Of a stretch of 37,755 nt of DNA, positions 7,783 through 31,893 are shown one piece after another. The stretch lies in the IMG/VR virus record IMGVR_UViG_3300037963_003190, positions 1 to 37,755 of that record; one strand, 5' to 3'. The notes beneath the pieces are model-generated. The model saw only the letters and a program-made list of their open reading frames with translations, searched no databases and was not told the DNA's origin. The translations under genes and the position numbers were made by a program. The stretch comes from a virus. Positions within the stretch are counted from its first letter, which is position 1. The number at the start of each line of letters is the position of its first letter.

Positions 7783-10377
7783 TTAACCAAAAGTAGCCTC
7801 TGATTGTATATTGTTCACTTTTGCAGCTTGTGTGATTGTATCAGTAGCATTATTAACAACCTGAATAGCTCCTATTGAACTTGCAACAGCTCTTGTTATT
7901 CTGTTTTCTAGTTCAGACATATCAACTCCGCCAGCACTGGTAAAGCCACCATTAGCAAAACCTATATTACTAAATGGTTGAGGTCTATTAGTACGCATAG
8001 CTTCCAAAGCACCTACTAAACTAGCTCCCCTTTGCGATTCAAGTACATTCTTAGGTACTACATATTCGCCCTCATGCACTATACCTGCTTGTTTAAATCC
8101 TGAGCTATCAGGAGAACCAAAACCAGAACCAGTATAACCTCCTTCTGCAAATCTTTGGCTAGCAACTATACCTGCTTGTACTGCACTCCTAGCCGTAGCA
8201 ATACCAGCTAAAGCAATATTTTGAGCAGCTCCTGCACTACCAAAAGTAAATGCGTTTAATGGGTTACCTGCTGAATTTGCTGCGATGTTTGCTATTTCTC
8301 GTGCTAAACTAATAGCTATTTGTGCTAACTCTAATCTTTTTTGCTTTTGGAAAGCTTTTCTTTCTATCGCTTCCCTTTGCTTTTCAAATTGCTCTTGAGA
8401 TATTAAACCCTGTTGTAATCTTGAATCTAAAGCAGCCAGTTCTAAAGTTTTTTCCCTCTCAACCCTTCTATTTGAAACATCAACTAAGGCATTAGCAGCC
8501 TGTTCAGCTAAATCTATTTTTTGCCTTTGTAGTTCCTGCTCAAAGTTTGCCCTCTGTTCTAATTCATTTTGCATAGCAGCAGAATCAATATCAAGCTTTC
8601 TCTCCGCTTCATTTTCTGCAATCTCTAAACGCTTTTCCGATTCTTCATTTATTAAATCTGAAAACGCTAGAATAGCATTTGTTGACTTTTGTATTTGCTC
8701 TTCTTCAAAATCAAAAGCATCATCTTCAACCTCTTCAAGCTCTTCTAATGCAAACTTTACATTATCAACCGCATCTGCTTTTTTATCTAATGCTTTAGCT
8801 TCTATTTCTGCTTGTAATGATGATGCTTTAGACGCTTCTGCTGCATTTTTTAGAGCGTCTTGTTGAGCTGTTAAATCTTTAAAAAACTTTGCTTGTATGT
8901 TAGCTATTACTGTTAAATTTTCTGCTAAATCATCATTATCATCTTTTTGAGCTTGTTTAATTTGCTCTTTTAATTTTAAAATGTTTTTAGCAGTATCTAT
9001 TCTTTTTTGTTTAACAGCTTCAGCATTACTTACATTGTTTTTTAAAAACTCATCATTTGCATCTAAAAGTTTTAATAAATCCTCTTGACTTTCGCTTATA
9101 CTTCCAAAACTTAAACCTATTGAATTTTCACCAACAGCCCTCAATCTATTAATTTGATTATTTACATCTGTAAAAGCATTTAATAATTCAGCTGCAAGAA
9201 GCTTTACTTTTGTTAATCCATCTTCACTACCTTCTCCAATGGTTAATATCATACCCTCATAAGCACTGCTTAATTTTTTAGTAGCTCCCACTGAAGTATT
9301 ACCAATAATATCAGCCATTTCACTAGCTGCACCGGAAGCATCATTAAAAGCATGAGTTAAATCAATACTTTTTTGCTCATTGTCTGCTAATGTTATAGCT
9401 AATGCAGCTCCCCTTTTACCAAATAAATCTAAAGCGGTAGTAGTTTTATCTGAGCTGTTTCTTATTTGACTTAATCCCTGTTCTAATGTTATTCCTCTTT
9501 TGCCTATTTCTAAAAATATGTTTCTTAATGCAGTACCAGCAGTACTAGCATCAAAACCAGCATCTGTCAAAGTACCTAGTAAAGCTGTTGTTTTCTCAAC
9601 GCTTATACCTGCTGTTTTAGCAACCGGAGCCACCGTAGCCATTGCAGTTTGAAACTTATTTATATCTAATGAAGTACTGCTAAATGACTTAGCCATCACA
9701 TCAACTATTCTCTGAGTTTCAGTAGCATCTAAGGCAAACCCTCTAAGAGTAGAAGCAGAAACAACAGCGGACTGAGCAAGGTCTGAACCAGAAGCGGTAG
9801 CAAGTTGTAATATGGCATCAGATGCTGCTAATATTTCAGGAGTAGTAAAACCTAATTTAGCAAGTTCCTCTTGTAGCTTACCTACTTCAGTTGAAGTAAA
9901 TAATGATGCCCTACCTAGTTCCTTTGCAGAGGTTGTTAATAGATTAAATTCAGCTTCAGTAGCACCCGTAACAGCTTTCACTTTTGCCATCTGCTGCTCA
10001 AACTCTTCTAATGTTTTAATAGCGTCTTTAAAAACTTGAAAAACTTGCTGAACAGCAAACAAACCAGCAAACCCGGCAACAATACTACTACCCATCTTTT
10101 TAAATGAGTTGCTTAATCTAGTAGTAAAACCATCAATACCTAGCATCTCTTGCCTAGTGACTAGCAATTGCCGTCTATGTGCTTTTAAACCGGTATTAAC
10201 CTTTGCTATCTCTCTTCCATATTTATTAAGTGATATTGTACCGTTTTTTTGAGCTTTGTTTAATTGTGTCCTTCTTAATGTTAATTTTTTAACCTCAGTT
10301 TCTAAAGCTGCTAATTTCTTTTTTTGTGCATCAGTACCTTGTAAATCAACTTTTATCGCTATTACCTTCTCTGCCAT
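7783..10377 (-). CDS. Tail tape measure protein (TP901-type)
   Basis: 864 aa. It sets tail length and is ejected with the DNA. Residues 1-75 are a basic coiled coil. About residues 105-330 match the TP901-type tape-measure core: EEFEQQMAKVKAVTGATEAEF, LFTSTEVGKLQEELAKLGF, LDINKFQTAMATVAPVAKTAG, DAGFDASTAGTALRNI. A long E/K/Q/A-rich coiled coil follows (about 470-690), then an Ala-rich hydrophobic stretch (LAGIATARSAVQAGIVAS) and the frequent tape-measure end motif HEGEYVVPKNVLES. The size predicts a tail of roughly 130 nm by the usual 0.15 nm per residue. It follows the tail-tip genes, an inverted order compared with lambda. Confidence 0.92.
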   Translation of the reverse strand: MAEKVIAIKVDLQGTDAQKKKLAALETEVKKLTLRRTQLNKAQKNGTISLNKYGREIAKVNTGLKAHRRQLLVTRQEMLGIDGFTTRLSNSFKKMGSSIVAGFAGLFAVQQVFQVFKDAIKTLEEFEQQMAKVKAVTGATEAEFNLLTTSAKELGRASLFTSTEVGKLQEELAKLGFTTPEILAASDAILQLATASGSDLAQSAVVSASTLRGFALDATETQRIVDVMAKSFSSTSLDINKFQTAMATVAPVAKTAGISVEKTTALLGTLTDAGFDASTAGTALRNIFLEIGKRGITLEQGLSQIRNSSDKTTTALDLFGKRGAALAITLADNEQKSIDLTHAFNDASGAASEMADIIGNTSVGATKKLSSAYEGMILTIGEGSEDGLTKVKLLAAELLNAFTDVNNQINRLRAVGENSIGLSFGSISESQEDLLKLLDANDEFLKNNVSNAEAVKQKRIDTAKNILKLKEQIKQAQKDDNDDLAENLTVIANIQAKFFKDLTAQQDALKNAAEASKASSLQAEIEAKALDKKADAVDNVKFALEELEEVEDDAFDFEEEQIQKSTNAILAFSDLINEESEKRLEIAENEAERKLDIDSAAMQNELEQRANFEQELQRQKIDLAEQAANALVDVSNRRVEREKTLELAALDSRLQQGLISQEQFEKQREAIERKAFQKQKRLELAQIAISLAREIANIAANSAGNPLNAFTFGSAGAAQNIALAGIATARSAVQAGIVASQRFAEGGYTGSGFGSPDSSGFKQAGIVHEGEYVVPKNVLESQRGASLVGALEAMRTNRPQPFSNIGFANGGFTSAGGVDMSELENRITRAVASSIGAIQVVNNATDTITQAAKVNNIQSEATFG

Positions 10378-10380
10378 CTC

Positions 10381-12642
10381 TTATCTATAAACTGGTTCTA
10401 TTAATCCTGTTATTGGGTTCTCAATATAAACCTCTATTAGTTGTGAGCCATCTTGTACATAAATAGGTTTTAAAACAGGAACTGTATTACCATTATCAGT
10501 ATCACTGCTATTATTACCCTGTTGGCTACCATCTATGCTTACACTGCCTAAATTCTCAAACTTAAATAATATAACTTTTGTTAACTCATTTTGTACAGGC
10601 TTATAATCAACTACACTCTCAATAAAATAATACCCTTTAACATTAGCTTCATTATCTAAATAAATCAACTTTCTAAAATCTAAGTTTTCAATATCTGTAC
10701 TGCTCAGATTAAAATACGCTATTAATCTACCGCCCTCTTCAATGTTTTTTATCATCTTAGAGTAATAGGTAGAAAACAACCCATCTGAACCTGTAAAACT
10801 TAAATTTTGAGGGCTTGTAATGTTATTATAACTTTCAAAAATACCATAAGGAATGACCTCAGTAGTAGTGCCAAACTTACTTATTTTGTTATTCTCACCT
10901 GTTACATTTAACTGGTTACCATTTTGGAAAAAATATATTTTACTGTTATAGTTAGTTGTTCTAGTTTCTGGAGCTGTATCTTCATACTCATTCCATATTT
11001 TTAATGTAACAGGATAATCATTAGCATTTGCATTTACAGGTGCAGCATTGCCGTCAGTTATTGCATAAGCAGCACTGAACTCATCTAGTTCTATTTTTTG
11101 AGTGCCTTCTGTAAATCTATCTGATAAAACACTATTATAACTACCATAAATACGCTTATTATCATCCTGCCATCCCTTTAACCACTCATCACGATTTAAA
11201 GCTTTATACCTAAAATTTAAAGTTCTTTTGTAGGAGCTTACATAGTCAACTTCATAGCTGTTAACATCTATTTTATCAGTCCAATCAATTGCATCAGATT
11301 GTGCTTTGAAAAAACTATCTCTAGTATTAAAATAAACTGTTTTACTTTTTACATCAGTCCAATAATAGATATTAAACATTCTTGTAAAATCATTTAAAAC
11401 ATCTATGAATTTAATACTATCAGGAAGTAAGTTATTTAGCAAAAAGTTATCATTTTCCTCAATTGCATTCTTTTTAGATAATTTTAAAAATGTTTGATAT
11501 GCCGTAAGCCCTTGTACTTCAACATCAAAAAATGACTCTGGTGTTTTTGTTTCAATATAGATTGAAATTTTATCATTTGCCCTAGCAGCAATAGTAGTGG
11601 AACGTGATACAGGATAAAAAATTGTACCTGAATACGCATCACCTACTTGCTGTTCAATTATTGTACCCGTACCTATTGATGTTAATGTTTGTCCGTTATT
11701 TACGATATATAAATAAACATTTTGACCACCATTAAAAGGGCTGTTAGTTCTTACTCTTATCTCATAAAATAAATCATAAGTACCATCAGATGGTACAGTG
11801 TATTCAAAAGTAGATGTATCATAATTATTACCAGGGTCTTTTAATGGGCTTGCCGAATCAGTATCAAAAGGCAATCTTTTTACATCACCTGGGCTTAATG
11901 TAAAGTTACTTCCTGATTTAACCCATATTGAAGTATTTTCTATTGTTGTTTCATCCTGTTTAAACTTTAAATCAAAATCACAAACCAATTTTTTGAGATG
12001 TGCATTGTCAGTAAAAAATGAAGTATTTACATTATACCCTAAAGAAGCAAAGCATTTATTTAAAATACTTTCTAAATAAAAAACAGGTCTATAATCAGAT
12101 ACTATTGTATCATTAGTTGATAAGTTGCCACCTCGATTAATATAAGGGTAAGCATGGCTATAAGTAGTACTATCAGCAGCATTAGCAGCGTCTATGCCTG
12201 CTTCATTATATGTTTGAGTGTTGTTATCCCAAGTAATACTCTTTAAAGTTAGCTCAGATGCTTCTTTAACCCAGTCAATATTATTACCATAAAAAACCAG
12301 TTCAAAACTTTCAACTTCTAATCCATTATAAACCTTACTAACCTGTAAGAAGCCCTTTTCAATAGGTGAATTGTTAACCAATATTATACATGGCTTTCTA
12401 TTTAATGCTCTTCTGTAATCTTTTCTGCTATTTATATTATCTACATTTGATAATAAATCTGCATTGGTTTTTGTGTTTGGAACTTTAAAACTTTTGGTGA
12501 ATGTCCCAGTACGCTGTTTTAAATTATCAAGATTAACAATACCTTTATTAATTGCTAAAGGGAAATCATTAAAATTAGTTAATTCTAAATCACCTTGAAC
12601 ATTATTAGCAGTATCTATTATTCTTATAATTACTTCATTCAT
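10381..12642 (-). CDS. Large tail-tip / baseplate hub protein
   Basis: 753 aa. The N-terminal third carries LKQRTGTFTKSFKVPNTKTN and YRRALNRKPCIILVNN, a pattern repeated in the large tail proteins next to the tape measure gene of Bacteroidota siphophages. A central Gly/Ser/Thr-rich beta region (about 240-350, including DGTYDLFYEIRVRT) looks like a carbohydrate-binding jelly-roll insertion. The C-terminal third has an aromatic-rich portion with EVDYVSSYKRTLNFRYKALNRDEWL. It is probably the hub or tail-associated protein at the tip. It overlaps the upstream gene by 4 bases and is followed 3 bases later by the tape measure gene. Confidence 0.6.
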   Translation of the reverse strand: MNEVIIRIIDTANNVQGDLELTNFNDFPLAINKGIVNLDNLKQRTGTFTKSFKVPNTKTNADLLSNVDNINSRKDYRRALNRKPCIILVNNSPIEKGFLQVSKVYNGLEVESFELVFYGNNIDWVKEASELTLKSITWDNNTQTYNEAGIDAANAADSTTYSHAYPYINRGGNLSTNDTIVSDYRPVFYLESILNKCFASLGYNVNTSFFTDNAHLKKLVCDFDLKFKQDETTIENTSIWVKSGSNFTLSPGDVKRLPFDTDSASPLKDPGNNYDTSTFEYTVPSDGTYDLFYEIRVRTNSPFNGGQNVYLYIVNNGQTLTSIGTGTIIEQQVGDAYSGTIFYPVSRSTTIAARANDKISIYIETKTPESFFDVEVQGLTAYQTFLKLSKKNAIEENDNFLLNNLLPDSIKFIDVLNDFTRMFNIYYWTDVKSKTVYFNTRDSFFKAQSDAIDWTDKIDVNSYEVDYVSSYKRTLNFRYKALNRDEWLKGWQDDNKRIYGSYNSVLSDRFTEGTQKIELDEFSAAYAITDGNAAPVNANANDYPVTLKIWNEYEDTAPETRTTNYNSKIYFFQNGNQLNVTGENNKISKFGTTTEVIPYGIFESYNNITSPQNLSFTGSDGLFSTYYSKMIKNIEEGGRLIAYFNLSSTDIENLDFRKLIYLDNEANVKGYYFIESVVDYKPVQNELTKVILFKFENLGSVSIDGSQQGNNSSDTDNGNTVPVLKPIYVQDGSQLIEVYIENPITGLIEPVYR

Positions 12643-20501: not shown

Positions 20502-21101
20502 CTACGGCAGTCGCTCAAGATGAATTATATTTAATATACTTCTAAAGTGTTTTGGTATGCCTTTGTATAAATCAATATTTGCCACTGCTTTTTCATACAT
20601 AATTTTTGCATCTTCTTCTATTTCAAATAATCCTAGATGAATATCATATTTATCAATTTTAATAGCTGACCTCCATTTGTTAGCTTTTTTACTCCAAGAA
20701 ACACCAACGTATTTACTTGTTTTATTTTCCAACTTACTTTTGAGGTCTTGCACAAATTTTCTTCTTGTAATAACTTTATCATTTTTAACAACCTCTTTTC
20801 TTTTACCTTTTGGTTCAAACCCGTTAAAATGAATTTGCTTTAAAGTATAAACATCATAAGTTTTTTTTATCTTATTTTTTACAAGAGAAACATCTCCATT
20901 TGTGTTTTTTAAAATCTTTTCCTTATAAACTCTTGGGCAATTATATCTACCTCCTATTACTATCTTTTCCAGAGCTTTTACCCTGTTTTTATTACTTATT
21001 TCATAAATACCTTCATACCCTTTTATAGGCTTCCATATTTCTTTACTTTCTAAATAAACAGTTTTACTATGCTGTGAAATGTTATTGATTTGTTTATTCA
21101 T
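20502..21101 (-). CDS. NUMOD4-AP2 protein lacking HNH residues
   Basis: 199 aa. Residues ~20-45 are a NUMOD4 motif (EIWKPIKGYEGIYEISNKNR). Residues ~128-175 are an AP2-type DNA-binding domain (SKYVGVSWSKKANKWRSAI, then HLGLFEIEEDAKIMYEKA). Between them, free-standing homing endonucleases carry an HNH segment of the type DHIDxNxxNN; here the corresponding stretch is KRKEVVKNDKVITRRKF, without the catalytic His and Asn pattern. It is therefore probably a nuclease-dead descendant, either decaying or reused as a DNA-binding protein. It lies just after the terminase region, a common target zone for phage homing genes. Confidence 0.7.
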   Translation of the reverse strand: MNKQINNISQHSKTVYLESKEIWKPIKGYEGIYEISNKNRVKALEKIVIGGRYNCPRVYKEKILKNTNGDVSLVKNKIKKTYDVYTLKQIHFNGFEPKGKRKEVVKNDKVITRRKFVQDLKSKLENKTSKYVGVSWSKKANKWRSAIKIDKYDIHLGLFEIEEDAKIMYEKAVANIDLYKGIPKHFRSILNIIHLERLP

Positions 21102-23778: not shown

Positions 23779-24771
23779 TTAATTAAAAGAATAAACTGCT
23801 GCTAGTACTATACTTGATAAATTATCTTTTTGCTCAAATACTTGCTCACTAGCTTTATCTAATCTGTATTCTAATTTTAGATTTAAATTTTCAACCGAAT
23901 AATCTAAAGTAGTTGTAAAGTTTATAACATTTGCACCTGGAGCAATAGCACCTATACCACTATTAATCTCTGCAAAATACTCACTTCTTAAACCGGCTGT
24001 TAATTTACCTAAATCATACTGAGGATATAAAGCAAGCCCATAAAAACCATCTTTATCAGTTTTGTTGTAAGTAGAATTTACTCCGAGATAAAACTTTTTA
24101 CTTAGGTCATAACCTGCTGTTAAATCTAGTTGAAAAGTAGGCTCTAAGCTTGCATCCTGTTTACCATACAAAGCATTTAAGTAAGTACCTTTATAACCTA
24201 ATTGAACTCCTAAAGTATTGAAGTTTGTAGGGTTAAAATCAGTAGCATCAGTTGCATTTAAAACCGCTAACATACCTGTAAGGTTTTCAGATAGGTTAAA
24301 ATCTGCTTTTAATCCTGAATGAGAAAAAGGACCATAACTAAACATATAAGAAGTTGAGTAATTAAAATTACCACTAGGGCTTATAACCTCATAACCTAGA
24401 AAAGTATTAAAATTACCCATTGTTAAAGTAAGGTTATCACTAACATCCCAGTAAGCATAAAGCTGATTAATAATATTAGAACTTCCTGACGATAAGAAAA
24501 CAGCGTCTTCCCCTCTAGGTCCAAATACTAAATCAGCAACAAAACCTGTATTTTTAGTATCATAAAAGCCAATAAGATTAAACATTCCTAAACTAAACCC
24601 GTTACCATTTGCAAATGATGTAGCTGGAGTTATTTCTGTATTTGATGTGCTTATGTTTCTACGGTAATAAATATCAGCACTTCCTTCTAAGGAAAGATTT
24701 GATTTTAAGCTGTCTTGAGCTGTAATAATTAAAGCACTTAGTGCTAATAAAATTGTAAATATATTTTTCAT
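23779..24771 (-). CDS. Outer-membrane beta-barrel porin (BBP2/OmpL-like), cargo
   Basis: 330 aa. Residues 1-18 (MKNIFTILLALSALIITA) form a Sec signal peptide. The mature part is an all-beta barrel: NLSLEGSADIYYRRN, GNGFSLGMFNLIGFYDTKN, GFVADLVFGPRGEDAVF, QLYAYWDVSDNLTLTMGNFN, TFLGYEVISPSGNFNYSTSY and FSHSGLKADFNLSENLTGML match the putative beta-barrel porin-2 family. Alternating strands continue to a C-terminal VLAAVYSFN. It is expected in the outer membrane, letting ammonium or other small N-compounds into the periplasm for Amt. It follows amt after a hairpin. Porins beside amt-glnK occur in Bacteroidota chromosomes, so capture of a whole locus is likely; the solute is inferred from context. 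Confidence 0.75.
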   Translation of the reverse strand: MKNIFTILLALSALIITAQDSLKSNLSLEGSADIYYRRNISTSNTEITPATSFANGNGFSLGMFNLIGFYDTKNTGFVADLVFGPRGEDAVFLSSGSSNIINQLYAYWDVSDNLTLTMGNFNTFLGYEVISPSGNFNYSTSYMFSYGPFSHSGLKADFNLSENLTGMLAVLNATDATDFNPTNFNTLGVQLGYKGTYLNALYGKQDASLEPTFQLDLTAGYDLSKKFYLGVNSTYNKTDKDGFYGLALYPQYDLGKLTAGLRSEYFAEINSGIGAIAPGANVINFTTTLDYSVENLNLKLEYRLDKASEQVFEQKDNLSSIVLAAVYSFN

Positions 24772-24787
24772 TTTTTTTGAAATTAAA

Positions 24788-24808
24788 AGAGGGGCTTTTA
24801 ACCCCTCT
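24788..24808 (-). terminator. Hairpin between amt and porin genes
   Basis: Minus strand: AGAGGGG, loop TTAAAAG, CCCCTCT, then TTTTAATTTC. It has a seven-pair G/C-rich stem with a moderate T run, 7 bases after the amt stop. It could terminate part of the transcripts, making porin less abundant than Amt, or protect the glnK-amt message 3' end. No separate promoter before the porin gene is evident. Confidence 0.65.
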
Positions 24809-24814
24809 ATATTA

Positions 24815-26044
24815 TTAATGTTGATTTAATCGGAAATCTGGATAGGCACTCATTCCATGCTCTGCATTATCTAAGCCCTCAACCTCTTCTCTTTTTGATA
24901 CTCTTAACCCTATTGTTTTTTTAATTGTAAATAGAATTAAGAAAGCACTAATTAAACAAAAGGCTCCAATGATACCCACTCCGGTTAATTGAATAAGAAA
25001 CTGACTAGCACTAGCCATACTACCAAAGATACCTACTGCAAGTGTTCCCCAGATACCACAACCTAAATGTACTGCTATGGCTCCAACAGGATCATCTAGT
25101 TTTAGCTTATCCAATAATGATACTGTAAACACCACCACAATACCACCAATAATACCAATTAAAACAGATTGGTTAGGGCTCATTAAATCTGCTCCAGCGG
25201 TAATAGCAACTAAACCTCCTAAGATACCATTTAAAAACATTGTTAAATCAAATGTTTTGTCTTTAATAAAAGAAGTAACAGCCGCACCAATACCACCAGC
25301 CGCAGCAGCTAAACAAGTAGTAACAAGAGTTAAAGAGGTCAATGCAGGGTCAGCACTTAATACGCTGCCTCCATTGAAACCAAACCAACCTAACCAAAGT
25401 ATTAATACTCCAGCAGTAGCAAAGGGTATGTTATGACCTAAGATGGGTATTGACTTACCGTTTTTGAATTTACCAACTCTAGCACCTAACAACCATACTG
25501 CAATAAGAGCAGCCCATCCACCAACTGAATGAACTAATGTAGAACCAGCGAAGTCATAGAAACCTAAGTTATCTAAAAAACCTCCACCCCATTTCCATGA
25601 TCCTACTATCGGATAAACTAATCCTACGTATATTAAACTGAAAATCATAAAGCTACTAAGCTTAATCCTTTCAGCTACTGCTCCTGATACAATAGTTGCA
25701 GCGGTTGCAGCAAACATTCCCTGAAAAAGAAAATCAGTCCACCATGTATAACCACCATCAGCATATTCAGCAGTCATACCGTTTACAGGTGCATCTATTC
25801 CAAAACCAGCGAATTTAATAAATCCAATACTACCATCTTCAAAGCCCGGATACATAAGATTAAAACCACCTATGTAATAAACTAATAAGCCCATACAAAT
25901 AATGAAGATGTTTTTAAACAAAATATTAATTGTATTCTTTTGTCTGGTTAATCCAATCTCTAAGAAAGAAAAACCTAAATGCATGAAAAACACTAAACCA
26001 GTGCAGACCATCATCCATACATTGTTAACTGTTAACATTTCCAT
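24815..26044 (-). CDS. amt: Ammonium transporter (Amt/MEP/Rh family), cargo
   Basis: 409 aa, eleven predicted hydrophobic segments, full family length. The Amt signature DFAGSTLVHSVGGWAAL (164-180) holds Asp164 and the first pore His172. The second pore His326 lies in VGAIAVHLGCGIWG. The aromatic gate region QGMFAATAATIVSGAVAERI (109-127) is intact. The cytoplasmic tail ends with GLDNAEHGMSAYP (390-402), the conserved segment needed for regulation by P-II. All features of an active channel are present, with no break. It starts eight bases after the P-II gene, as in bacterial glnK-amtB operons. Unlike most bacterial Amts it has no obvious N-terminal signal peptide. Confidence 0.95.
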   Translation of the reverse strand: MEMLTVNNVWMMVCTGLVFFMHLGFSFLEIGLTRQKNTINILFKNIFIICMGLLVYYIGGFNLMYPGFEDGSIGFIKFAGFGIDAPVNGMTAEYADGGYTWWTDFLFQGMFAATAATIVSGAVAERIKLSSFMIFSLIYVGLVYPIVGSWKWGGGFLDNLGFYDFAGSTLVHSVGGWAALIAVWLLGARVGKFKNGKSIPILGHNIPFATAGVLILWLGWFGFNGGSVLSADPALTSLTLVTTCLAAAAGGIGAAVTSFIKDKTFDLTMFLNGILGGLVAITAGADLMSPNQSVLIGIIGGIVVVFTVSLLDKLKLDDPVGAIAVHLGCGIWGTLAVGIFGSMASASQFLIQLTGVGIIGAFCLISAFLILFTIKKTIGLRVSKREEVEGLDNAEHGMSAYPDFRLNQH

Positions 26045-26051
26045 CTCTCTT

Positions 26052-26390
26052 TTAATTTAAAGTTTGATTTCCACGTTCTCCAGTTCTAATCCTGTAAGCT
26101 TCTTCAATATTGGAAACAAAAATCTTACCATCTCCAATATTACCTGTTTTACCAGATTGCAGAATAGCTTTTATTGTTCTATCTAAAAACTCATCAGATA
26201 CAACAATAGATAAGTACCTCCTTTGTATATCAGAAGTACTATATTCAATTCCTCGATAGCGTCTATCGAGTTTCTCATTACCAACTCCTGTACAATCCCA
26301 GTAACTAAAAAAAGTTACCTTAACTGCCAATAGAGCTGATTTCACATCATCGAATTGAGATTTTCGAATGATGGCATCCACTTTTTTCAT
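26052..26390 (-). CDS. glnK: P-II nitrogen regulatory protein (GlnK-like), cargo
   Basis: 112 aa, full length. The fold starts MKKVDAIIRKSQFDDVKSAL. The T-loop (about 36-55) has GNEKLDRRYRGIEY, in which Tyr50 aligns with the uridylylated Tyr51 of E. coli proteins. The second P-II signature TGNIGDGKIFV is at 82-92, and RIRTGERG (100-107) supplies nucleotide-binding Arg residues. The usual Gln39 ligand is Glu here (G37-N-E39-K), which I believe is common in Bacteroidota but could not check. It would sense ATP/ADP and 2-oxoglutarate and block or open Amt. It has its own -7 element upstream (26421-26428) and leads the cassette. Confidence 0.93.
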   Translation of the reverse strand: MKKVDAIIRKSQFDDVKSALLAVKVTFFSYWDCTGVGNEKLDRRYRGIEYSTSDIQRRYLSIVVSDEFLDRTIKAILQSGKTGNIGDGKIFVSNIEEAYRIRTGERGNQTLN

Positions 26391-26429: not shown

Positions 26430-26708
26430 TTATTTTCCCTGTTTTGCTCTGTACTCGTTTATTCTGATCTTGTTTTTTATTTCCTGCTCAATGTCAATAT
26501 TGTAATGCTTTGCCATGTTTAAACATACCAGAATAACATCAGCTAACTCTTCAGGTAAATTACTCCATTCTTTAGATATTAAAGCTTCTTTTTTTAGCTC
26601 TTCTACCTCTTCTTGAAGCTTATCTAAAAACTCAAAAAGCGTAGTAGTAGGAGTTATAAAACCCCTATCTACTATGCTCTGGTAATTGGCACTTATTATA
26701 TCTTGCAT
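26430..26708 (-). CDS. MazG-like nucleotide pyrophosphohydrolase
   Basis: 92 aa, a single all-alpha MazG/dUTPase-like NTP-PPase domain. LFEFLDKLQEEVEELKKEAL gives the metal-binding ExxE pattern (about residues 31-38), and NLPEELADVILVCLNMAKHY gives the second ExxD helix. Such phage enzymes hydrolyse NTPs/dNTPs and have been linked to nucleotide recycling and the starvation response. It starts on the stop of the helicase-methyltransferase gene (TAATG) and directly precedes the nitrogen cassette. The start at the ATG 26708 is supported by that overlap. Confidence 0.75.
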   Translation of the reverse strand: MQDIISANYQSIVDRGFITPTTTLFEFLDKLQEEVEELKKEALISKEWSNLPEELADVILVCLNMAKHYNIDIEQEIKNKIRINEYRAKQGK

Positions 26709-28936
26709 TAGAATAATGTTAGTTGATTTTTTGAATGTATTGCTTTATTTACATTTTTTATAGCAGTTTCAAAATATTTATCTTTTAACTCTATTCCAAT
26801 TCCATATCTATTTAATTTTACTGATTCAAATATTTCACTTCCAATTCCTAAAAAGGGAGTAAAAACAGTTTCATGAGGATTTGACCACATTTGAACGCAT
26901 CTTTTTATTACAGAAAGTTGAAGTGGAGCAATATGTTTTTCATCACCTAAGTCAGTTCCTTGTTTATTGTTTAAAACGTCAGTTCTTTTGATATCCATCC
27001 AAGATTGTACTTTGTAAAGTTTTTCAATCTCTTCTAAGTGTTTTATATCTGATTTTTCAACATTCCAAACAGGACTTGCCCAAGATTGCCAAGTATCTAA
27101 AGGGAAATTATTTTGGTTTTTATTGTTTATTGGTTTCCAATCTTCTTCATTTCCATCCCACTTACGAAAAACTGTAACATATTCAGGAAGTCCTACTCCA
27201 GTATAACTTGAGTCTTTTCTTAATTGCTTATAAAGTAGTCTTTGTGTTTTAGTTCTTTGCATTTCTAACACGGGGTCAGTCCATATATTTATTTTTGAAT
27301 GATACTTAAAACCTACATCTTCAACTGATTTATGATGTTCTCCAGTAAAATCATACAGTCCAGTGTAACCACTAGAATTTTTATAAACAGCTAAATCTTT
27401 TGTGTGACAACACATTAACCTACCCGGCTTTAATATCCTGTATAAATCTTTTAATAAGAATTGATATTGTTTAAAAAAATCATCGTGACTGTCATTATTA
27501 CCCATATCGTGTATATAATTCGAATAAGTAAATAATGAACTAAACGGAGGGCTGAAAATAATTAAATCTACTGAATTATCTGGTATTCTTTTTATTTCCT
27601 GACATGAGTCACCTTTCATTAGCCAATAGTCGTTATTCTTTACTTCTTTAAAAGTATAAGAATTTAATAGTCCAAATGATTCACCATTAATGTATTTATT
27701 CATTTCGTTTTGCATTTCTTCAAATTGTTTTTGTTTTTTATTTATAATTTTTATTACATTTTCCATAGTATCAGTTGTAATCAAATAGATGTTTACATTG
27801 TTTTTTTGTCCGAATCTGTAAGACCGCCTTACTGCTTGGTAAAGTCCTTCAAAACTAAAATCTAAACTTGCAAATACCTGATTGTAACAATTTTGAAAAT
27901 TCATACCAAATTGAGCTATTTTCTTTTTTGTGACTAAAACTCTAAATTCATTATTTGCAAATCCTAGTAATCTAGATTCTTTAATTTCAGGTTTGTCAGC
28001 ACCGTTAACAGAAACTGCATCAGGTATTAATTGTTTTATTTTTTTTTCTTCTTCATTTTGGTTAACCCATACAATAAATTGACTACTAGAGTTATTAACT
28101 ATCTTAGCGACTTCTTCTAATCTTTCAGCTAATGTTAATTTCAATTCTTTGTTAAAAGATGTTGCATTAGTGTTTCCTTCATTAAATAACCTTCCATTAT
28201 TTCTTACTTTTGTTTTTATGCTTTTTTCAAAGTAATTAATCTTTGGTAAAACGTATTTAGTTCCATCAAAACCTAAATCCTTTGGATTAGTTAACATAAC
28301 TGCCCATGAGCTAATCCATCCGTAAAAATCTTTTTTAGCGTGCCCTTTTAAACGATAGTTATTCATACCTTCATCCCTAACAAACCACTTAGCTCTCATA
28401 TCCTGAGCATCTAATACATTTAAAAACTCACTGTGATTTCCAATTTCATTCAAATCATTAGGCGAAGGCGTCGCAGTACACGCTAATTTATAAGCTGTTT
28501 TATCAAACTTATCAATTATTAGCTTTTTATATTTTCCTGTGAAGTTTTTTAATATACTTGATTCATCTAATACTACACCTGAATAAATTGAAATATCAAT
28601 ATTGTCTAATTGTTCATAATTCCAAATATCAAAACTATCTAAGTTTATATTAAATTTGATTGCCTCTTGTTTTGTTTGACCTTTGACCGCTAAAGGTGCA
28701 AGTATTAAAACCTTTTTATTTGTTTTTTTGTAAACTTCTTCAGCCCAGCTTAATTGCATTAGTGTTTTGCCCAAACCACAATCAGCAAATATTGCAAATC
28801 TACCATTTTGTAATGCTCTAATAACAATATGTTTTTGAAAATCGAACAAATTAGTATTTAAATTACTTTCATTAATACAAAAACCACTTTTAACGTGCCT
28901 TTTCTCTTTTGTTTTTAAGAACTCTTGATAATCCAT
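26708..28936 (-). CDS. SNF2-type helicase fused to DNA methyltransferase
   Basis: 742 aa in two parts. Residues ~30-400 are an SF2 helicase/translocase: Walker A ADCGLGKT (51-58), motif II DESS (124-127), motif III-like TATPSPND (154-161), and the C-terminal lobe with FEGLYQAVRRSYRFGQ (motif VI, 362-376). Residues ~435-742 are an N4/N6-type amino-methyltransferase of permuted order: SPPF (462-465) as motif IV and FTPFLGIGSE with FLGIG (695-699) as AdoMet motif I. The SPP form is commoner in N4-cytosine enzymes. No nuclease domain is visible, so self-modification against host restriction, or methylation during replication, is more likely than a complete restriction system. Confidence 0.88.
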   Translation of the reverse strand: MDYQEFLKTKEKRHVKSGFCINESNLNTNLFDFQKHIVIRALQNGRFAIFADCGLGKTLMQLSWAEEVYKKTNKKVLILAPLAVKGQTKQEAIKFNINLDSFDIWNYEQLDNIDISIYSGVVLDESSILKNFTGKYKKLIIDKFDKTAYKLACTATPSPNDLNEIGNHSEFLNVLDAQDMRAKWFVRDEGMNNYRLKGHAKKDFYGWISSWAVMLTNPKDLGFDGTKYVLPKINYFEKSIKTKVRNNGRLFNEGNTNATSFNKELKLTLAERLEEVAKIVNNSSSQFIVWVNQNEEEKKIKQLIPDAVSVNGADKPEIKESRLLGFANNEFRVLVTKKKIAQFGMNFQNCYNQVFASLDFSFEGLYQAVRRSYRFGQKNNVNIYLITTDTMENVIKIINKKQKQFEEMQNEMNKYINGESFGLLNSYTFKEVKNNDYWLMKGDSCQEIKRIPDNSVDLIIFSPPFSSLFTYSNYIHDMGNNDSHDDFFKQYQFLLKDLYRILKPGRLMCCHTKDLAVYKNSSGYTGLYDFTGEHHKSVEDVGFKYHSKINIWTDPVLEMQRTKTQRLLYKQLRKDSSYTGVGLPEYVTVFRKWDGNEEDWKPINNKNQNNFPLDTWQSWASPVWNVEKSDIKHLEEIEKLYKVQSWMDIKRTDVLNNKQGTDLGDEKHIAPLQLSVIKRCVQMWSNPHETVFTPFLGIGSEIFESVKLNRYGIGIELKDKYFETAIKNVNKAIHSKNQLTLF

Positions 28937-29562: not shown

Positions 29563-30543
29563 TTAAAATGGTAAATCGTCATCAATATCATCATTTCCGT
29601 AGCTCATTCTACTCATGTTTTGATGCTCTTTTGTTTTTATGAGTTCTAATTGTTCGGATGGTTTGTCGTATGTATGCTCTAATGGGTTTTCGTTATCGAT
29701 TATGTAAGCACAATGATTAACCCATCTTAACTCTATTGGTTTATCTCTGGGAGTAACACAACCTCCAGTAATAGTTTCTTTTACTTTCCTAACGTGCAGC
29801 TCTCCAATATTCCACCTTTCCGGGTGCTGTGTCATTCTGTGAATAGTAAAAAAATCATCTGCTCTATTAGCAAACTTTTGACCACCTTCTGTATCTGCTT
29901 TTTCAGGAGCTGCTAAATGTCCTTCGTAAATATGGTCTTTTGGATATCTGTTTCTGGCTGATTGAGTTACTAGATGAGCATTTACAAATACCGTAGTATT
30001 ATTCTGTTCTGCAAATATTCTAAGGTTAGCACAAATGTCATAATCCTCTTGATGTTTGTTACTGGTTTCAGTCATTAAGCTGTTGAAAGGATCAACTAAC
30101 AATCCATCATGATGCTTTTTACTTGCTATGTCCAAAATATCATAAGCGGAGTATCTTTTATCGTTCGGTATAAATTCAAAATAATCAGATATTTCATTTA
30201 GGGTATGCTGAAAACCTCTATCATCAATCGTATAATCTTTGTCTAATCTTCTACCAGTCCAAAAGTTAAAAATTTTAAATACCTGACTTCTAACTGTATT
30301 TTCTGAAGAGTAGATAAGATGTTTTTTACCATGCAGCTTACTCATGCAAACAAAGTACCATAACAAAACATCTGTTTTTCCTACGTTATCATGCCCGTTA
30401 ACCATATTAAACTGCCCTTGCTTCCATTTAATGTGGTTATCAAAAGCTTCTACTCCTATTCCTAAACCTTGCTCAATCTTTCCTAATCGTATTTCATCTA
30501 AGCCCTGAAGCTCATGAAAAGGTTTTGTGTAATAATTTTCCAT
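29563..30543 (-). CDS. RecA-fold (DnaB/RepA-like) helicase with SSB-type tip
   Basis: 326 aa. Single RecA-like ATPase domain of AAA_25/RepA type: Walker A GHDNVGKT (50-57) and Walker B DGLLVDPFNSL; later TTVFVNAHLVTQSARNRYP (motif with His, sensor-like) and EGGQKFANRADDFFTIHRM. There is no N-terminal DnaB domain, so it probably acts as a stand-alone replicative helicase or annealing-related ATPase. The last residues, GNDDIDDDLPF, copy the acidic-hydrophobic C-terminal tip of bacterial SSB, a docking site for repair and replication proteins. It starts one base after the initiation-protein stop. Confidence 0.8.
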   Translation of the reverse strand: MENYYTKPFHELQGLDEIRLGKIEQGLGIGVEAFDNHIKWKQGQFNMVNGHDNVGKTDVLLWYFVCMSKLHGKKHLIYSSENTVRSQVFKIFNFWTGRRLDKDYTIDDRGFQHTLNEISDYFEFIPNDKRYSAYDILDIASKKHHDGLLVDPFNSLMTETSNKHQEDYDICANLRIFAEQNNTTVFVNAHLVTQSARNRYPKDHIYEGHLAAPEKADTEGGQKFANRADDFFTIHRMTQHPERWNIGELHVRKVKETITGGCVTPRDKPIELRWVNHCAYIIDNENPLEHTYDKPSEQLELIKTKEHQNMSRMSYGNDDIDDDLPF

Positions 30544-31185
30544 CTATTTACTCCCTTCTATCCAAGGAGCTGCTGTGTTATTGTTGTTTGTTTCTTTTGG
30601 TTTGCTGGTTGAGTTACACCAATTCCAGAACCAAGATATAATATTTCCGTATTGTTTATTCCTAAACTCTTCTGAATCTTTTTTAATTTCTAAAAATCTT
30701 TTTAAGTGTTTTATAAGCTCTTCTTTGTTCGTTTTATAAATTATCTCATTTTGTTGATAACTTGTTTCAGAAAACCTTTTCAAAACAGAATTTATTTTTT
30801 TATTAATTATATATATATCATTATCATTAACAGTATCAGTATCAGGTTTTTTTGGGTTTTTTGGGTTTCCAAAATAACCCACTGGGTTTTTTGGGTTATT
30901 AGATAAACCCACTGGGTTTTCTGGGTTTTTCTTAGGTCTTCCACCTAGAGCACCATTGGCTCTATTGCGTTCCTGTATTTTCTCATATTTCTTTAAATCT
31001 CTCTTCAATTGCTGTTTTATAGGATTAAAAGCAGCATTCAACATCCAGTCATCTGATTGAGGATTTTTATCATTAACATATTCGAAAATGTGTTTAATTA
31101 ATTTTCCAGCAAATTCATCAGGAAGTTCGGAAAAGGTTTCCAAGTAATCACAATAGAGTATAAAACTCTTTTTATCTTTTGCCAT
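30544..31185 (-). CDS. Replication initiation-like protein (DUF6291/DnaD-like)
   Basis: 213 aa. The N-terminal ~75 residues (KKSFILYCDYLETFSELPDE, FAGKLIKHIFEYVNDKNPQS, FNPIKQQLKRDLKKYEKIQE) match the DUF6291-type region found in phage replication proteins. NRANGALGGRPKK follows, then three 10-residue repeats NPxNPxxxxx (NPENPVGLSN, NPKNPVGYFG, NPKNPKKPDT), then a helical C-terminal domain ending IISWFWNWC. The repeats at DNA level (30841-30930) suggest an origin inside the gene, as in lambda O. It overlaps the upstream gene by 14 bases and is followed by the helicase gene. Confidence 0.65.
   Translation of the reverse strand: MAKDKKSFILYCDYLETFSELPDEFAGKLIKHIFEYVNDKNPQSDDWMLNAAFNPIKQQLKRDLKKYEKIQERNRANGALGGRPKKNPENPVGLSNNPKNPVGYFGNPKNPKKPDTDTVNDNDIYIINKKINSVLKRFSETSYQQNEIIYKTNKEELIKHLKRFLEIKKDSEEFRNKQYGNIISWFWNWCNSTSKPKETNNNNTAAPWIEGSK
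30781..30832. other. AT-rich stretch beside repeats (candidate unwinding element)
   Basis: A run that includes ttatttttttattaatta and tatatatatatca, with hardly any G or C, directly beside the 30-bp repeats and inside the initiation-protein gene. In lambda-type origins an AT-rich region flanks the iterons on the side towards the end of the initiator gene; the same order is seen here. Confidence 0.45.
30841..30930. repeat. Three 30-bp direct repeats (candidate iterons / ori)
   Basis: The plus strand holds TGGGTT at 30853, 30862, 30883, 30892, 30913 and 30922: three pairs, 9 bases apart within each pair, with a 30-base period. The two right-hand units also carry AACCCACTGGGTT, an inverted repeat (30877-30889 and 30907-30919). 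In the protein they encode six Asn-Pro pairs, every one as AAC CCA although the genome is AT-rich. Either the DNA sequence itself is under selection (iteron origin) or the repeat duplicated recently. Confidence 0.6.
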
Positions 31186-31450
31186 TATTATTGAGTAGTT
31201 TTTTTATTTGTTCTAAATCATTAAGTAATACTTTATCATCAGCTTTTAATAAGCTAGTAATCTTCCTTTTATAAGCCCTTACTTTGCTTAAATTACAACC
31301 TAAATACTTAGAAATGTTTGTTTGATTTATCTTTAAATAGTCATGTGCTAAGTAACAAAAAATATACTTAGAATAAGAATTTTGATCTAAAGAAGAGTTA
31401 AAATATACAAAGATTACCAGCTTCAAAAAGTCTAAATCTTGACATTGCAT
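31172..31450 (-). CDS. Small HTH-like protein (92 aa)
   Basis: 92 aa. DLDFLKLVIFVYFNSSLDQN at the N-terminus and a probable helix-turn-helix INQTNISKYLGCNLSKVRAYK in the middle, then a charged helix. It overlaps the DnaA-domain gene by 19 bases and the initiation-protein gene by 14 bases, so the three are translated as a block. A DNA-binding partner in replication initiation is plausible but not shown. Confidence 0.6.
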   Translation of the reverse strand: MQCQDLDFLKLVIFVYFNSSLDQNSYSKYIFCYLAHDYLKINQTNISKYLGCNLSKVRAYKRKITSLLKADDKVLLNDLEQIKKLLNNNGKR

Positions 31451-31893
31451 AGCTTTTGTATCAGTTTGTTATTTTCCTTTGTTTTGGCTTCTACATATTC
31501 ATTGAAAATACTAGTTACTTGTTCAATATCTTCTTTAATATTATCAATATTAAATTCCAATAAATCAACTACTAATTTATAACCATTTAAAACAGTAGCA
31601 TGGTCTCTGTTAACCCTTTTACCAATAAATTTTAAGCTGTTTTTAGTCAGATTTCTACAAAGGTAATAATACGCACCTCTAGCATTTACATAATGTCTTT
31701 GTCTGCTTTTTCCTGTTAGTTCTTTTTCTGTTATCTGGTAATGCAAAAGAACTGCATCAATTATTAATTCTATTTTTTGTTTGTCATATAATGTTACATT
31801 GTTTCTTTTGAAGTAGTTAGTAACATCATAAAAATTAAAGCCTTGCTTGTATAACATATAGGCTTTGTAAAGGTCATTTTCGCTGTAAATCAT
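31432..31893 (-). CDS. Stand-alone DnaA domain IV DNA-binding protein
   Basis: 153 aa. Residues ~40-110 match domain IV of DnaA: KQKIELIIDAVLLHYQITEK, GKSRQRHYVNARGAYYYLC and the signature GKRVNRDHATVLNGYK (91-106), corresponding to the DnaA helix-turn-helix with its RDH(T/A)TV box-recognition loop. The AAA+ ATPase domain of DnaA is absent. The C-terminal ~45 residues are charged and helical. It probably binds DnaA-box-like sites in phage or host DNA, either to start phage replication or to interfere with host initiation. It heads the initiation block. Confidence 0.85.
   Translation of the reverse strand: MIYSENDLYKAYMLYKQGFNFYDVTNYFKRNNVTLYDKQKIELIIDAVLLHYQITEKELTGKSRQRHYVNARGAYYYLCRNLTKNSLKFIGKRVNRDHATVLNGYKLVVDLLEFNIDNIKEDIEQVTSIFNEYVEAKTKENNKLIQKLCNVKI

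Follow-up and report, generated by a model that had tools for sequence, protein, structure and literature searches.

What is a regular array of direct repeats, flanked by unusually unstable DNA, doing in the middle of a phage protein-coding gene? The array is carried by a linear IMG/VR virus record of 37,755 bp, analyzed here over its whole length and referred to as the window, in which the minus strand holds almost all plausible genes. A first-pass annotation had proposed that the site is a candidate replication origin inside an initiator gene. Family-wide conservation of the DNA and the occurrence of similar composites outside coding sequence support that proposal, and it is very likely that the region from 30.78 to 30.93 kb serves the phage as its origin of replication, or as one of several, at which a DUF6291 protein would bind iterons beside an unwinding element and load a helicase; the function is predicted from sequence comparisons. 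The linear record may be incomplete, and another origin is thus possible elsewhere.

The array occupies part of a putative replication initiator gene (30544-31185, minus strand) encoding 213 aa. Its N-terminal DUF6291 domain (residues 7-85; 30931-31167, minus strand; PF19808, E 4.6e-27) has a predicted role in DNA binding, and its C-terminal domain (residues 122-213; 30547-30822, minus strand) a putative one in contacting helicase or ssDNA. In an AF2 model from 58 sequences (overall pTM 0.38), a helical N-domain with pLDDT of ~90 and a helical C-domain (122-192) are separated by a linker, residues 90-120, with pLDDT below 50, and it is this disordered linker that is encoded by the iteron DNA. 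The next gene downstream (29563-30543, minus strand) specifies a DnaB/RecA-type helicase (phrog_18375 primase/helicase, E 4e-32). Upstream are genes for a RusA resolvase and, in the same replication block, for a stand-alone DnaA C-terminal (domain IV) protein (31432-31893, minus strand; PF08299, E 4.1e-21); Cellulophaga phage phi19:3 likewise has a stand-alone DnaA domain-IV protein upstream of its DUF6291 gene. Elsewhere on the minus strand of the window are a NUMOD4-motif protein of homing-endonuclease type (20502-21101), a SNF2/helicase region fused to an N6/N4 DNA methylase (26708-28936) and, in a row at 23779-26390, an ammonium transporter (PF00909, E 1e-114), a P-II nitrogen regulator (PF00543) and a BBP2 outer-membrane porin (PF07642), which is a host-derived nitrogen uptake cassette.

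The array itself (30853-30928, read on the plus strand) consists of six TGGGTT and two AACCCA boxes. The TGGGTT boxes begin at 30853, 30862, 30883, 30892, 30913 and 30922, exactly where they had first been marked, at intervals that alternate between 9 and 21 bp, and the AACCCA boxes begin at 30876 and 30906; Tandem Repeats Finder reports the same interval with a period of 30, 2.5 copies and a score of 103. Two exact copies of the palindromic iteron pair AACCCACTGGGTT are found at 30876-30888 and 30906-30918, and sites of this type with no more than 2 mismatches number 4 against 0.31 expected. The window contains 30 copies of TGGGTT (13.0±3.5 expected), the densest 100 bp for TGGGTT/AACCCA sites is the array, with 8 of them, and no second iteron array was found in the window. 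The adjoining candidate DNA unwinding element (30781-30845) combines a hexamer run, TATCAG x5 at 30816-30845, with an A+T tract at 30789-30828. The AT-rich stretch noted beside the repeats proved to be an apt observation, as only one other 40-bp stretch of the window is less stable than this tract; the other most unstable stretches are intergenic or at gene ends according to the ORF list. DnaA boxes, TTATNCACA, are absent near 30.8 kb and number 3 in the whole window against a chance expectation of 2.8; without them the site does not fit an origin of the chromosomal, DnaA-box type. Cumulative GC skew, suggested initially as a check, was rejected as an origin locator, since all main genes of the window point one way, confounding skew with gene orientation, and the skew minima of three related phages, 0.7-2.4 kb from their arrays, coincide with gene-strand switches.

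Codon usage in the window gave a first indication that the DNA is under selection in its own right. It had been remarked that all six Asn-Pro pairs of the gene are AAC CCA. This holds for the six pairs in the linker (P = 1.9e-6 under phage codon usage), but the gene has eight in total, and the two outside the linker, at residues 41 and 54, are AAT CCT, which strengthens the original point about selection on DNA. Relatives collected by protein similarity carry, in the linker after a GGRP motif, the element AACCCARAAAACCCA, which is translated in three ways: AAC CCA AAA AAC CCA as NPKNP, GAA ACC CAA AAA ACC CAA as ETQKTQ, and AAA CCC AAA AAA CCC ACT GGG TT as KPKKPTG. Among 37 non-redundant loci, the AACCC core falls in codon phases 0, 1 and 2 in 42, 63 and 48 cases, and AACCC and GGGTT cores together number 168, compared with 37.3±5.4 and at most 53 when codons were shuffled 300 times with peptide and local codon usage preserved. 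Because each of these loci had been chosen for at least two AACCC, a motif-free test was added, which counted repeated 7-mer pairs in the linker DNA of 32 loci; there were 498 of them against 96.7±16.9, whereas the N-terminal control gave 96 against 86.5±10.3. Repeats were also somewhat in excess in the C-terminal control (228 against 124±14), perhaps due to a hexamer run that lies inside the C-terminal part of short genes. Phages of Vibrio, Pseudoalteromonas, Aeromonas and Shewanella, only 43-48% identical in the matched N-terminal part, retain the AACCC array with (GATAGT)n after it, and the DNA signal is kept in more than 100 related viruses despite differing amino-acid readings. Retention of the NPxNPVG peptide with varied codons had been named as the outcome that would count against an origin; the opposite was seen, with the DNA kept while the peptide changes. 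On these comparisons the conserved entity is the DNA and not the peptide.

The A+T-rich flank is similarly constrained. A run of (D/V/G)(N/S/T/I/A) codons, 76% A+T, follows the array in 68 of 74 loci, and in it Ser is AGT in 98 of 100 instances (22.6 expected), Asn is AAT in 229 of 233 (133.6 expected) and Asp is GAT in 212 of 216 (143.1 expected). This codon bias implies that the run, too, is constrained as DNA, as expected of a DNA unwinding element. Gene order is also shared within the family. The downstream gene is a helicase homologue, having DnaB_C or Toprim plus DnaB_C Pfam domains, in 45 of the 71 loci with a downstream ORF. That of phi19:3 is a DNA replication protein whose annotation rests on similarity to COG1484, a DnaC-type loader, and in one further locus (L088) an AAA ATPase is found. 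In phage phiA005 the order DUF6291-dnaB-...-pphA-NinG resembles the O-P-nin order of lambda. The lambda-like plan first suggested for the window, an initiator gene with iterons, A+T-rich DNA and a helicase or loader gene, thus holds across the family, and the features of an iteron origin within an initiator gene (in-gene direct repeats, an A+T-rich element, DNA-level selection and a helicase or loader neighbor) were found together.

IMG/VR was also scanned with three DNA patterns, using no protein information. Of 142 loci recovered by these motif-first scans, 114 have the motif within a DUF6291 gene, directly after GGRP in those inspected. Half of the remaining 28 (L216, L218, L226, L228, L237, L240, L246, L249, L250, L253, L258, L259, L267 and L269) are a single family of AACCCA..TGGGTT hairpins, recurrent, intergenic and terminator-like, with similar flanking sequence in many viral contigs. 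Three others fall in one long coding gene (L277/L278/L312) and were set aside as uninformative, being probably chance matches. L213 and L243 resemble DUF6291 genes interrupted by a stop just after GGRP, with the downstream array intact, representing either a pseudogene or a sequencing error. L201, L202 and L212 bear AACCC iterons in the linkers of initiator-like proteins with other N-termini (a weak DUF1376 match in L202), for which convergent recognition or capture of an origin cassette would each be an explanation.

In four loci, iterons and a GATA-type run were found outside initiator coding sequence, and these non-coding composites argue against a purely protein-level explanation of the motif. 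The L231 composite (8440-8550) precedes, by at most ~300 bp, a DUF6291 gene that has no AACCC in its linker; that of L244 (~1150-1440) lies between genes identified by Pfam as terL and portal, on a 4.9-kb contig with no initiator gene; that of L251 (~11500-11750) is ~15 kb from a DUF6291 gene (L256) on the same contig, which has an in-gene array as well; and L272 is a weaker example. The first three are candidates for second or relocated origins.

These composites bear on whether the array might be an operator only, bound by the DUF6291 protein for autoregulation or for transcription of the replication operon, and not an origin. In other replicons iterons often serve as operators too, and the L231 copy occupies the position expected of an operator, immediately before the initiator gene. 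However, a mid-gene site, as found in most relatives, is poorly placed for a promoter operator, the constrained A+T-rich hexamer run follows the array even in non-coding copies, and the L244 composite stands apart from any initiator gene on its contig; a purely regulatory site is therefore improbable.

Considerably less probable still is that the inverted repeats act as RNA, in the form of a terminator or attenuator hairpin or, with A AAA AAC, a programmed frameshift signal. The linker RNA of the window does fold better than shuffles (z -3.65), A AAA AAC is in slippery phase there, and the 14 intergenic matches described above are terminator-like, but any GGGTT is present in the linker of just 14 of 37 AACCC-type loci, so that a hairpin is not conserved, and the codon phase differs among relatives, so that no slippery site is kept. 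We give the same low standing to the idea that the DUF6291 protein binds the array as a site for partition, incompatibility or packaging and not as an origin; iteron arrays can have such roles and the L244 copy adjoins terL, whereas the location in an initiator gene that has helicase or loader genes next to it, together with the A+T-rich run, speaks against it. Least probable of all is a low-complexity protein linker in which peptide repeats matter and DNA similarity is secondary, for although the peptides are repetitive, with K/P/N and D/N/S/T/V runs, this is contradicted by the three codon phases, the synonymous-shuffle tests and the non-coding copies.

Replication initiation remains the favored role of the array. 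The initial description of the gene product as "DUF6291/DnaD-like" was right in its first part; the DnaD-like identity was rejected, since the DnaD Pfam domain gave no match at E<1 and PDB fold searches no match. A PDB fold search with the AF2 model and a PDB sequence search returned no convincing match, and with no solved fold to match the initiator domain, its DNA binding is a predicted property. Fold matches among viral proteins were mainly to other DUF6291 proteins, together with the automatic labels "DnaD domain protein" and "replisome organizer". Membership of the lambda O family by homology was likewise rejected, as comparisons with Pfam, PDB sequences and PDB folds matched no initiator.

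Variation among relatives is informative about specificity. Five iteron types were recognized, each paired with its own protein segment: AACCC with NGxxGGRP, AAAGC with KR(S/A)ExGxxGGRP, CGAAGC with GG(L/F/V)KSGE, TCAAC with (A)GxxS(A/V)xxR, and TCGCA with GNLKR(Y/W)N. The type of iteron and that of the adjacent ~20-residue segment (residues 66-88 in the window; 30922-30990, minus strand) are concordant in 65 of the 66 loci that could be classified. Iteron types need 25 changes on a tree built from residues 1-62 only, which is weakly resolved from few columns, compared with a minimum of 5 and a shuffled mean of 35, and sister pairs with good support, L101/L157 among them, differ in segment and iteron alike. 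The scatter on the tree and these sister pairs indicate that segment and iterons switch together, repeatedly. Part of the correlation could be plain physical linkage, which aids such co-switching, and the correlation is accordingly indirect support for binding of the repeats by the protein and not proof of contact. A larger exchange is seen in L005-L012, in which the C-terminal half of the window protein is fused to another N-terminus, Lin1244_N (PF14297, E 1.6e-5 in L005), and a different repeat family accompanies the swapped N-terminus. From these patterns we lean, with some reserve, toward DUF6291 proteins forming a large and hitherto undescribed phage initiator family, in which the ~20-residue segment ending a DNA-binding helix is the main specificity determinant, segment and iterons have been repeatedly exchanged as a mini-cassette, and there are at least five origin specificities.

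That the protein works like lambda O is well supported, and we infer the steps of binding, melting, helicase loading and initiation as follows. The DUF6291 N-terminal domain would bind the TGGGTT/AACCCA iterons within the DNA encoding its own linker, and the ~20 residues around GGRPKK would account for most of its specificity. The resulting nucleoprotein complex would melt the adjacent A+T-rich hexamer run, the C-terminal domain would deliver the neighboring DnaB/RecA-type helicase to the opened strands, and this loading would start theta replication. Because the origin would overlap the gene, the DNA-binding domain and its iterons would travel as one specificity cassette.

Origins within genes are certainly an old theme (PMC6316719, PMC7466680). 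Ori-lambda lies within gene O, with iterons in mid-gene and then an A+T-rich tract (PMC7466680), and the DUF6291 locus shares this arrangement as well as a next gene that acts on the replicative helicase; it differs in a domain without sequence or fold match to solved structures, in having a phage helicase or DnaC-like loader as partner, in its short AACCCA boxes with 9/21 bp spacing, and in DNA conserved through three reading frames. In SPP1, oriL is within gene 38 and comprises direct repeats and an A+T-rich unwinding element, with gp39 as helicase loader and gp40 as helicase, and two origins are ~13 kb apart (PMC6316719). The DUF6291 locus is alike in its repeats and A+T-rich unwinding element within an initiator gene and its helicase or loader, and the layout of oriL and oriR is matched by L251/L256, with two arrays ~15 kb apart on one contig, although gp38 belongs to a different initiator family and one array was found in the window. 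Modular replisome organizers of Gram-positive phages, as in Krappator oenophages, have differing N-terminal halves and a similar C-terminal half (PMC12403621), as do L005-L012, whereas in the DUF6291 family a swap brings a change of iterons with it, as does the exchange of a segment as short as ~20 residues inside one domain family. None of the open-access papers searched mentions DUF6291, and a literature search for Lin1244 in phage replication gave no match. The overall plan is already known; the DUF6291 family itself, conservation of the DNA whatever its reading frame, and the specificity cassette appear new.

In summary, structural modeling and comparisons among related phages have led from a repeat array noticed within one gene to a probable function for a widespread DUF. 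Origins could be located from sequence in many phages that have not been cultivated, most of them phages of Bacteroidota and others of Gammaproteobacteria, and the five types of matched initiator-iteron pairs offer a natural set for deriving recognition rules. The family would also provide a clear example of a regulatory DNA element that overrides the protein reading frame within a gene.
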